A stretch of DNA of 64,000 nt from Bacteroidota bacterium (lineage in GTDB: Bacteria; Bacteroidota; Rhodothermia; JANXDC01), in the NCBI GenBank assembly GCA_025059945.1, contig JANXDC010000016.1, positions 1 to 64,000 on the forward strand, written 5' to 3'. Shown in pieces: positions 41,654 to 44,810 of the stretch. Every line of letters begins with the position of its first letter. The first letter of the stretch is position 1. The notes under the pieces were generated by a model. It saw only the letters and a list, made by a program, of their open reading frames with translations. It was not told the DNA's origin and searched no databases. The position numbers and the translations under genes are program-made.

Positions 41654-42391
41654 TTAGCAGGCCAAGAGGCGCTTGAGGTATCGGCTCCGCTCTCGGCTGG
41701 CGATAAGCTCCCGACCGTCGAGTAACACAACTTTCAGGCGGCCGCTAAACCAGGGAATGAGCTCCCGGATTGCATCCAGCCGCACCAAAGCGGAGCGGCT
41801 GATGCGCAGGAATCGCTCCGGATCCAGACGCGCCTCCAGTTGCTCCAAGGAGCTGCGCAGCAGGTATCGGCGCTCTGGGGTGTACAGGTACGTCAGTCCG
41901 TCGTGAACTTCCACGGAGAGCACCTCCTGCAACGACACCAAGACCAGGCGGTTGCGGTAGGGCACCGCCAAATGCTGAGGGGCGGGGGAGGCGGAGGGCC
42001 GGCGCTGATGCGCCTGCACGAACAGCCGGGCCCGCTCTAGGGCCTCCGAGAGGGCGCGCAGCTCGACGGGCTTAAGCACGTAATCGAGGGCTCGGACCTG
42101 AAAGGCGCGCAGGGCGTAATCGGGGTAGGCCGTAACGAAGATCACGTACGGCGGGCGGGCCATTTGCGCGCGCAGGCGTTCTGCCAAGGCCAGACCGTCT
42201 TGCTCCGGCAGCTGAATGTCCAGCAAGATCACATCAACCGGTTTTTGCTCAAGCAGGCGGAGTGCCTCCTCGGCGTCGGCCGCTTCGGAGACGAGCTCCA
42301 CGGCCTGCATACGGCTTAGCAGCCGACGCAAGCGATGTCGGGCCGGCTCTTCGTCCTCCACGATCAACACGCGCAGCGGATTCGGCTCCAT
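41654..42391 (-). CDS. LytTR-family response regulator
   Basis: A 245-residue regulator. Residues 1-120 form the receiver domain with acidic pair EDEE, phospho-acceptor Asp58 in ILLDIQLPEQDG, the conserved Thr in FVTAYPDYALRAF and the Lys in YVLKPV. Residues about 145-245 are a LytTR DNA-binding domain (SVEVHDGLTYLYT, LRISRSALVRLDAI). It should act on promoters after phosphorylation by the upstream kinase. Its first 143 bp overlap the 3' end of the kinase gene in another frame. Confidence 0.93.
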   Translation of the reverse strand: MEPNPLRVLIVEDEEPARHRLRRLLSRMQAVELVSEAADAEEALRLLEQKPVDVILLDIQLPEQDGLALAERLRAQMARPPYVIFVTAYPDYALRAFQVRALDYVLKPVELRALSEALERARLFVQAHQRRPSASPAPQHLAVPYRNRLVLVSLQEVLSVEVHDGLTYLYTPERRYLLRSSLEQLEARLDPERFLRISRSALVRLDAIRELIPWFSGRLKVVLLDGRELIASRERSRYLKRLLAC

Positions 42392-44810
42392 GGCCGCTCT
42401 CCTCCAACGGACGAGGCAGGCGCAGGCGCGCGCACGTGCCTTCGGCGTGGCTGTCGAACTCCAGAAGGCCAGCCAGGCCGTACAGATGCGCCAAGCGCTG
42501 GGCCAAGTTGGTTAAACCCGTGCCGAAAAAATCGGTTCGGTCTGGCTCAAAGCCCGAAATGCCCGGCCCGGTATCCGAGACCTCCACCCAGAGTGCCTCT
42601 CCGTCAATCCAGGCGCGAAGGCGCACCGTTCCCCCACAAGCCTGACGGGCAACCCCATGCTGCACGGCGTTTTCTACAAGCGTCTGCACGGCCAGCGTGG
42701 GCACGGGCCAATCGAGGGCCTCGGTCGCGATATCGTATTCGACGCGCAGCCGCCGGCCCAGGCGCGTACGCTCTATGTCCAGGTAGCTGGTGACCAGCTC
42801 CAGTTCCGTCTCCAGGGGTACGAGCGCCTGTCCGGCGTGTTCGAGCACATGGCGGAACAAGTGCGCCAGGCGCTCGACAGTGGCCTCGGCCTCTTGCGGG
42901 CGGTCCTCGATGAGCGCCGCAATCGTGTTGAGCGTGTTGAATAGAAAATGCGGATTGATGCGCGCGCGCAAGGCGGCCAGCTCCGCTTCGGCCGTGCGGC
43001 GCACCAGGGCTCGTTCGCGTTCCAGAAAGGCCCATCGCTCAGCGGCTTGCGCTATATAGGCTGCCCAGGCGCGGGCTCGCTCTATGTCGTCCAGGTTGAA
43101 CACGCGCCTCCGGCGGCCCAAGGCGAGCAGGCCCCAGGTCTGGTTTTCGGTTCCTATCGGCACAAGCAGGCCCGTGTGGCGCGCCTCCAGAGCGCGTTCA
43201 AGCTCCCCAGGCAGATGAGATCGCGGCAGCACCGGAGAGGGCATCCAGAGGCCGTCTTGGGGGGTGGTCCTGTAAAGCGCGCGCCAAAATGACTCCGGGC
43301 CTGGGTCCGAGGGCCAACCTTGCAAGATCGCGGGGCGCTCTGGAGGAAAAAGAGCCAGGGCGGCCCAGGGGGTTTCGAAGAGTTCTGCGCTGGTGCGCGC
43401 GGCCTCCTCAGCCATCCGGGCCAGATCCCCGTAACGACTCAAGGCTTCGCCAGAGCGGCGCAGGCGTGCCCAGTAGGCGCGCTCATCGGCCAGCAGCGTT
43501 CGTTCCAACACCCGATAGGCGATCGGAGCGATCGTGGCCAGCGCCGCAGCCGCTAGCCAGTCCCTGGCCGGCACGGGCAGGGGGCCAGAGGGGTCCCAAA
43601 ATCCGCGCAGCAAACTATAGCCCCACAGCCCTACAAGGAGCGTCCCCAGGCCCGCTACGGCTCGGCGCATCACCACGGATACAGGTCCGTACTTAAGGGT
43701 GCTATAGGTGAGCAGCAGTACGGGAAACAGGCTCAATACCTGCACCAATAGCACAAGCCCCACGGTGAACCGATCGGTCGTGTAGGCTACTTCGGGTAGT
43801 ATCCCCAAAACGGCCATGAGGGCTAGCAGACACAGGGCCAAAAACAACCCCGTGCCCATGCGGCTCATCCAGCCCGGGCCGGGCTCTAATGGGGGCCCCA
43901 TGAGCAGAAGTCCTGAGGCTCCCATCATGTACGCGCTTACACACAGCAGCAGAGAGGCGGTGAGGGTGTTGATCGTAAACCCCCCTGGCCAGCCGCTGAA
44001 AAAAGCCGCGCTAAACAAGAGCCCTGCATAGAGGCTCGGTGGGACAAAGCTCCACAGGCTTAAGGGAAGGGGAACGGGCCACACGGTCCGCGCTGCACGC
44101 CAGAGCAGAAGGCTCGGAAAGGCGAGCCAACCCAGTACGGCTAGAAACGTTAGCCCGGGCAGCAGGGCCGGCGTAGGACCCTCAAGGGGTCCCCAAAGGG
44201 ACAGGAGCAGGATGCGAGCGGTGTTGCCGCCAAACCACAGCGCTCCGAGCGCGATCAGGCCTACGTCGATCCAGTGGCGGCGGTTGCGCCAGGCCAACGG
44301 CAGCAGGATGAACAATCCAACCCCGTGCACCAAGAAGCCGAATCCAAACCCCCATCCGGCTGCCGCCCACAGCACAGGATCGATGGGATACAGCAAAGCG
44401 GGATACTCGGTGATGCGCACGGTAACGGAGAACAGGCGCTCTCCTCGAAGCAACTCGTACAAGACCTCTGAGCCCGGCTTAATGCCCCGTATCGCCTGGT
44501 CTACCGCTTCGAGACTAAAGAGGGCGCGGCCTTGTATGCGCACCAACCGATCGCCTGCTCGGATGCCGGCCCGGTCCGCGGGTCCGCCGGGAAACACAAA
44601 ACCCGCCTCCGGACCTCGGCCTTGGTCGCGCCAGTGCACCCAGTCGTAGCCGCGCGTCTGGGGAAAGTGCGGCTCCCCAAAGGCGCGAAAGCGAGCCCAG
44701 TCCAGCCCGATCTGATACAAGGGCACCAGGGCCCAGGCCGGCACCAAAAGCAACACAAGTTTTGCTGCGGTCGCGCGGGCCACGAACGCAAAGTACGCCC
44801 CTAAACCCAA
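42249..44810 (-). CDS. Membrane sensor histidine kinase (LytS/YehU type) with PDZ and GAF domains
   Basis: An 853-codon frame. A first membrane helix (about residues 15-35) is followed by an extracytoplasmic PDZ-like domain (about 65-130; GGPADRAGIRAGDRLVRIQG) and about nine further helices to about residue 440. A GAF-like domain (about 465-600) precedes the His_kinase domain (INPHFLFNTLNTIAALI, about 625) and an HATPase with ENAVQHG and DTGPGISG. The recognisable kinase ends near residue 805; the last 47 codons overlap the response regulator gene in another frame. The start is a TTG; no ATG exists near the N-terminus. The signal sensed is unknown. Confidence 0.88.
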   Translation of the reverse strand: MGLGAYFAFVARATAAKLVLLLVPAWALVPLYQIGLDWARFRAFGEPHFPQTRGYDWVHWRDQGRGPEAGFVFPGGPADRAGIRAGDRLVRIQGRALFSLEAVDQAIRGIKPGSEVLYELLRGERLFSVTVRITEYPALLYPIDPVLWAAAGWGFGFGFLVHGVGLFILLPLAWRNRRHWIDVGLIALGALWFGGNTARILLLSLWGPLEGPTPALLPGLTFLAVLGWLAFPSLLLWRAARTVWPVPLPLSLWSFVPPSLYAGLLFSAAFFSGWPGGFTINTLTASLLLCVSAYMMGASGLLLMGPPLEPGPGWMSRMGTGLFLALCLLALMAVLGILPEVAYTTDRFTVGLVLLVQVLSLFPVLLLTYSTLKYGPVSVVMRRAVAGLGTLLVGLWGYSLLRGFWDPSGPLPVPARDWLAAAALATIAPIAYRVLERTLLADERAYWARLRRSGEALSRYGDLARMAEEAARTSAELFETPWAALALFPPERPAILQGWPSDPGPESFWRALYRTTPQDGLWMPSPVLPRSHLPGELERALEARHTGLLVPIGTENQTWGLLALGRRRRVFNLDDIERARAWAAYIAQAAERWAFLERERALVRRTAEAELAALRARINPHFLFNTLNTIAALIEDRPQEAEATVERLAHLFRHVLEHAGQALVPLETELELVTSYLDIERTRLGRRLRVEYDIATEALDWPVPTLAVQTLVENAVQHGVARQACGGTVRLRAWIDGEALWVEVSDTGPGISGFEPDRTDFFGTGLTNLAQRLAHLYGLAGLLEFDSHAEGTCARLRLPRPLEESGHGAESAARVDRGGRRAGPTSLASAAKPYAGRGARLRSGRRRGGTPPA

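Follow-up and report, generated by a model that had tools for sequence, protein, structure and literature searches.

Does a LytS-type sensor kinase carry an extracytoplasmic PDZ domain, and what might such a domain recognize? The question is raised by a minus-strand open reading frame in a 64,000-nucleotide stretch of a Bacteroidota contig, JANXDC010000016.1, referred to here as the window. PDZ domains are normally the protein-tail-binding part of proteases; an example of relevance here is DegS, the envelope-stress protease of E. coli. A sequence-only reading of the locus had described the encoded protein as a LytS-type kinase with a PDZ domain between its first helix and about nine further helices, and had suggested that it could detect exposed protein C-termini. 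Our analysis favors, with a probability of roughly 75%, a kinase that acts as the sensor in a LytS/LytTR two-component system and has a ComP-like anatomy, in which one transmembrane (TM) helix, an extracytoplasmic PDZ domain and nine TM helices precede cytoplasmic GAF, dimerization/phospho-acceptor and ATPase domains (Table 1). The fold, the membrane side, the intact phosphorylation motifs and the fixed regulator partner are supported by prediction and comparison, the PDZ fold and the topology being predictions throughout.

Table 1. Features of the kinase and regulator genes (window positions; residues of the kinase)
Feature	Position	Strand	Basis
Sensor histidine kinase ORF, 853 aa	42249..44810	(-)	ORF call, orthologs, alignment
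TM1, residues ~14-36, N-terminus inside	44703..44771	(-)	Hydropathy and model
Extracytoplasmic PDZ, residues 52-139	44394..44657	(-)	PDZ_6 E 1.7e-8; DegS PDZ structural match
R53-W60, carboxylate-binding loop position and first strand	44631..44654	(-)	Register inferred from aligned ends
Nine TM helices, residues 145-440	43491..44378	(-)	Model helices; hydropathy, positive-inside alternation
GAF, residues 463-592	43035..43424	(-)	Pfam below cut-off; 6oap E 4e-6; PDE6 GAF Z 14.0
LytS-type His_kinase, phospho-acceptor His621	42747..42986	(-)	Pfam; ortholog alignment
HATPase_c	42408..42692	(-)	Pfam E 2.6e-8
Kinase 3' end/regulator gene overlap, 143 nt	42249..42391	(-)	ORFs; overlap shared by sister genome
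Response regulator, receiver and LytTR	41654..42391	(-)	Pfam; adjoins kinase in 16/16 ortholog loci

The open reading frame proposed earlier is present, with TTG at 44810 as its listed start, and alignment with the sister protein suggests that GTG at 44783 may be the true start instead. At the other end, the coding region for the final ~47 residues of the kinase overlaps the beginning of the regulator gene in another reading frame; these residues form a disordered tail in the AlphaFold2 model. The overlap is the same in the sister genome, while most other kinase orthologs end within ~50 nt of the regulator start (these spacing values exclude loci L175 and L183).

Evidence for the PDZ domain comes from three directions. 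Pfam PDZ_6 matched residues 74-117 with 34.5 bits against a cut-off of 27 (E 1.7e-8) and PDZ_2 also matched, the segment GGPADRAGIRAGDRLVRIQG falling within both matches, far above chance. A profile built from 21 PDZ sequences of the family recovered DegP, DegQ, and DegS from the PDB with a best E-value of 9.3e-13, and the lone PDZ sequence as query still reached DegQ (E 3.7e-8) and DegS (E 1.6e-7). Residues 52-139 of the whole-protein AlphaFold2 model (mean pLDDT 78.7, pTM 0.60) superimposed on the DegS PDZ with a Z-score of 15.3 and an rmsd of 1.2 Å over 88 aligned residues. Modeled by itself, the domain (pLDDT 87.4) again adopted a PDZ fold; its top Foldseek match was DegS in complex with a YRF peptide (E 1.3e-7), and comparison with DegS carrying a YQF peptide gave Z 16.2 and rmsd 1.2 Å over 89 residues. 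The agreement of Pfam matches, PDB profile matches and predicted fold indicates a genuine PDZ domain and rules out a chance PDZ-like motif, as the sequence-only reading had anticipated. Its assignment of GGPADRAGIRAGDRLVRIQG to the carboxylate-binding loop has to be revised: the segment is the strand-helix-strand signature GxPAxxAGIxxGD, and the loop lies upstream, around R53-V58 (44637-44654).

Hydropathy and the AlphaFold2 helices together indicate ten TM segments, of which the first precedes the PDZ domain and the other nine follow it. The net charge of successive loops is +2.0 for the inside N-terminus, -4.7 for the PDZ loop, and then +2.9, 0.0, +1.9, -0.3, +1.6, about 0, +1.5, and +0.1, such that positive charge falls on alternate loops and the strongly negative PDZ loop is placed outside the cytoplasm. 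On the strength of this alternation, a cytoplasmic PDZ is rejected. Thus, neither of the outcomes that had been named in advance as refuting the proposal, a failure to obtain a PDZ fold or a cytoplasmic location, occurred in structure prediction or topology analysis. Parts of the TM region were modeled at pLDDT 55-70, so helix packing is unreliable in places. The PDZ domain is connected to TM2 by a conserved FLYP linker and subsequent tryptophans (44349-44402), a zone in which P137, W148, and W153 are invariant in the 21 orthologs; the linker possibly fixes the PDZ domain against the membrane.

The cytoplasmic half of the protein is that of a LytS-type kinase with a GAF domain, again as first described. 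His_kinase (PF06580) scored 90.8 bits and is followed by HATPase_c, and His621, Asn714, and Gly748/750 are invariant in 21 orthologs, whereas the GAF domain is sub-threshold in Pfam (20.8 against 22.4 bits) and is backed by its profile and fold matches. LytS-type kinases that work with LytTR regulators include LytS, BtsS, and YpdA, and a 5TMR_LYT sensor region is typical of LytS. The present kinase resembles these systems in its PF06580 and HATPase_c domains and in the LytTR regulator gene beside it, but differs in its sensor, which consists of the PDZ domain and nine TM helices; no 5TMR_LYT region was found by Pfam at E ≤ 1. Nor was HisKA_3 (PF07730) at the same threshold, PF06580 being present instead.

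The expected LytTR partner is encoded by the adjoining gene. A search by tblastn with the window regulator located a regulator beside the kinase on the same strand in all 16 ortholog loci fetched, and both regulators scanned by Pfam contained a LytTR domain. Because the kinase is the only PF06580 protein of its small genome and the adjoining regulator the only LytTR protein, their pairing is unambiguous and the targets should be directly findable. Beyond the genus, the regulator was the only one of the window genes tested that adjoins the kinase in these loci, and no other neighbor was common to all of them. A TatD-like gene (named from a reading of its sequence) is divergent from the kinase in 10 fetched loci. 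In six, the regulator is followed by a gene with a SpoIID domain, assigned by Pfam in the one case scanned, L170:10497-11852. In the window, neither gene lies close to the kinase. No clear repeated operator emerged when four upstream regions were aligned.

The sequence-only reading had noted that PDZ domains usually sit in proteases; it missed that a PDZ domain in a kinase sensor has a precedent. According to PMC9620489, the first two of the ten TM helices of Bacillus amyloliquefaciens ComP enclose an extracellular PDZ domain, and binding of ComX by that domain is suggested there as a proposal. A streptococcal kinase whose PDZ domain has one TM helix on one side and nine on the other is called 'characteristic of a ComP-like HK' in PMC3353171. 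Given these published layouts, the sensor anatomy is already known, and hydropathy and modeling predict that the present kinase shares it. Like the ComP-like kinases of Bacillus ComQXPA and of TCS-15 in mutans streptococci, it has one TM helix, an extracellular PDZ domain of ~85-90 residues, nine TM helices and a cytoplasmic kinase, with N and C termini both inside. It differs in its output, which is a LytS His_kinase with a LytTR regulator rather than the HisKA_3 of ComP, in the tryptophan that its orthologs carry where the ComP binding loop has glycine, and in having no signal-peptide gene adjoining it within the window. The kinase is therefore a known ComP layout joined to a different output; no description of a PDZ domain in a LytS-type kinase was found in the open-licence literature searched.

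Whether the common layout reflects homology of the whole sensor was addressed with ComP-like genes of Bacilli, drawn from 80 of 107 matching stretches; 17 proteins, hand-picked by length and a PDZ-like motif, were aligned. All four that were scanned had HisKA_3, and their PDZ matches lay close to the cut-off or under it. Direct hhalign comparison of the TM region of the kinase family with that of ComP gave a probability of 0.07, below permuted controls. As the TM-only profiles do not align, the initial alignment of the full N-terminal regions was probably carried by the PDZ domain, and homology with ComP is not demonstrated for the sensor as a whole.

Proteins with a TM-PDZ-multiTM-GAF order were also encountered within the phylum, in 19 of 296 genomes (loci L206-L225, reached via L055 and L056); 20 matches were fetched, and the 10 scanned all ended in a SpoIIE domain. 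These putative phosphatases share the order of TM, PDZ, multi-TM region and GAF with the kinase but have a SpoIIE phosphatase output in place of LytS. Some of them carry an additional insert of ~80 residues ahead of the PDZ domain. The N-terminal profile of the SpoIIE family could be aligned with that of the kinase family (357 columns, probability 98.9, E 3e-17) and with that of ComP (probability 99.3, E 1.6e-20). When profiles were confined to the TM region, the similarity between ComP and the SpoIIE family was clear (probability 97.3, E 2.4e-11; score 88.6 against 47.0 for the best control). That between the kinase and SpoIIE families is a modest, suggestive signal (probability 58.7, E 9.5e-5), its score of 41.6 exceeding all 41 controls (maxima of 16.8 for 20 column-permuted and 30.6 for 20 block-permuted controls, and 22.1 for the reversed control). 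These profile comparisons make a common TM-PDZ-nine-TM module plausible, although its TM part is not demonstrated.

Full-length kinase orthologs were identified in 21 of 60 related genomes, its own included. Across 296 genomes of the phylum, the N-terminal profile recovered the whole sensor in 22, all of the same class, and in 11 more matched over the PDZ domain or little beyond. The profile of the nine-TM region returned the same 22 genomes plus weak matches in G159 and G234 (E about 0.001), and hence at strong E-values this region was not seen apart from a PDZ domain. Among the matches listed for 299 genomes of the phylum that includes Bacillus, the N-terminal profile covers the PDZ domain and little more.

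The binding loop bears on what the PDZ domain recognizes. A Gly-containing carboxylate-binding loop is typical of PDZ domains but not universal. Residue 52 pairs with DegS residue 255 in both models (against 3gdv_C and 6ew9_A for the whole protein and 6ew9_C for the PDZ domain alone), so that R53-G54-Y55-D56-W57-V58 corresponds to DegS R256-G257-Y258-I259-G260-I261, the DegS loop that holds the peptide carboxylate; this register derives from the ends of the aligned ranges, with no printed residue alignment. Loop and first strand read RG[FY]DWVxW in the family and RGYDWVHW in the kinase described here, against RGYIGIGG in DegS. The position of DegS G260 is tryptophan in 20 of 21 orthologs and is preceded by aspartate in 19; it is glycine in DegS and in DegQ PDZ1, and, paired by eye, the invariant G34 of all 17 ComP-like proteins. 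On this inferred register, the canonical Gly-containing loop is absent from the kinase PDZ of 20 of the 21 orthologs. Such a family-wide change argues for an altered mode of recognition but leaves loss of peptide binding unproven. Because the loop is unlike that of classic PDZ domains that bind C-termini, the kinase PDZ probably recognizes its ligand in some way other than the simple capture of a free carboxylate seen in DegS. A bolder proposal, which we consider rather unlikely as a whole, is that TM-PDZ-nine-TM is an old portable receptor module serving at least three outputs (HisKA_3 in Bacilli, LytS here, and SpoIIE in the phylum) and that in this branch its groove was rebuilt, by the change of glycine to tryptophan and the preceding aspartate, so as to read extracytoplasmic ligands of a class that does not present a free C-terminus.

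For the LytS/LytTR sensor with ComP-like anatomy, a route of signaling can be envisaged in which the PDZ domain would bind a ligand. The likeliest candidates would be a polypeptide of the envelope or a molecule associated with the membrane and lodged between the PDZ domain and the TM bundle. Binding would alter the packing of the bundle, and the long helix running from TM10 into a coiled coil would relay the change to the GAF domain and His621. Phosphate would then move to the LytTR regulator, which would switch its target promoters.

A role for the PDZ domain as a docking or regulatory lid without a free ligand, one that keeps another membrane protein docked or rests against the TM bundle while a small or lipid ligand, or the state of the membrane, is sensed by the bundle, is the most probable alternative, albeit a tentative one. 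It is consistent with the altered carboxylate loop, the conserved FLYP linker and the 17 columns of the TM region, among them His162 and Arg199, that are invariant in 21 orthologs, but sits less well with gene neighborhoods in which, outside the genus, the regulator is the only one of the tested window genes to persist beside the kinase and no other neighbor is common to all fetched loci.

Sensing of envelope stress in the manner of DegS, through free C-termini of misfolded envelope proteins, was the function first proposed and is now partly disfavored. The nearest solved structure is indeed the DegS PDZ complexed with YxF peptides, and the two domains are both membrane-tethered and periplasmic, share a fold at Z 15-16, and have the same RGY start and EYPA end; the kinase, in contrast, lacks a protease domain as well as the insertion after the first strand of its PDZ. 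Both the replacement of the loop glycine and the absence of any envelope-stress gene among those window genes that are conserved beside the kinase count against this explanation, leaving it improbable, and detection of exposed C-termini a possible but not favored mode. Least probable is a quorum sensor resembling ComP whose signal would be a peptide that is secreted and possibly lipidated. Such a sensor would fit the shared anatomy and the suggested binding of ComX by the PDZ domain (itself a proposal in PMC9620489) but is opposed by the LytS output, the lack of direct TM similarity to ComP and the distance of only 70 bp to the divergent upstream gene, which leaves no adjoining signal-peptide gene in the window.

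PDZ-containing membrane sensors, ComP included, are poorly understood. The occurrence of LytS/LytTR and SpoIIE outputs on the same kind of sensor would allow sensing by the PDZ domain and TM bundle to be separated from the action of the kinase.
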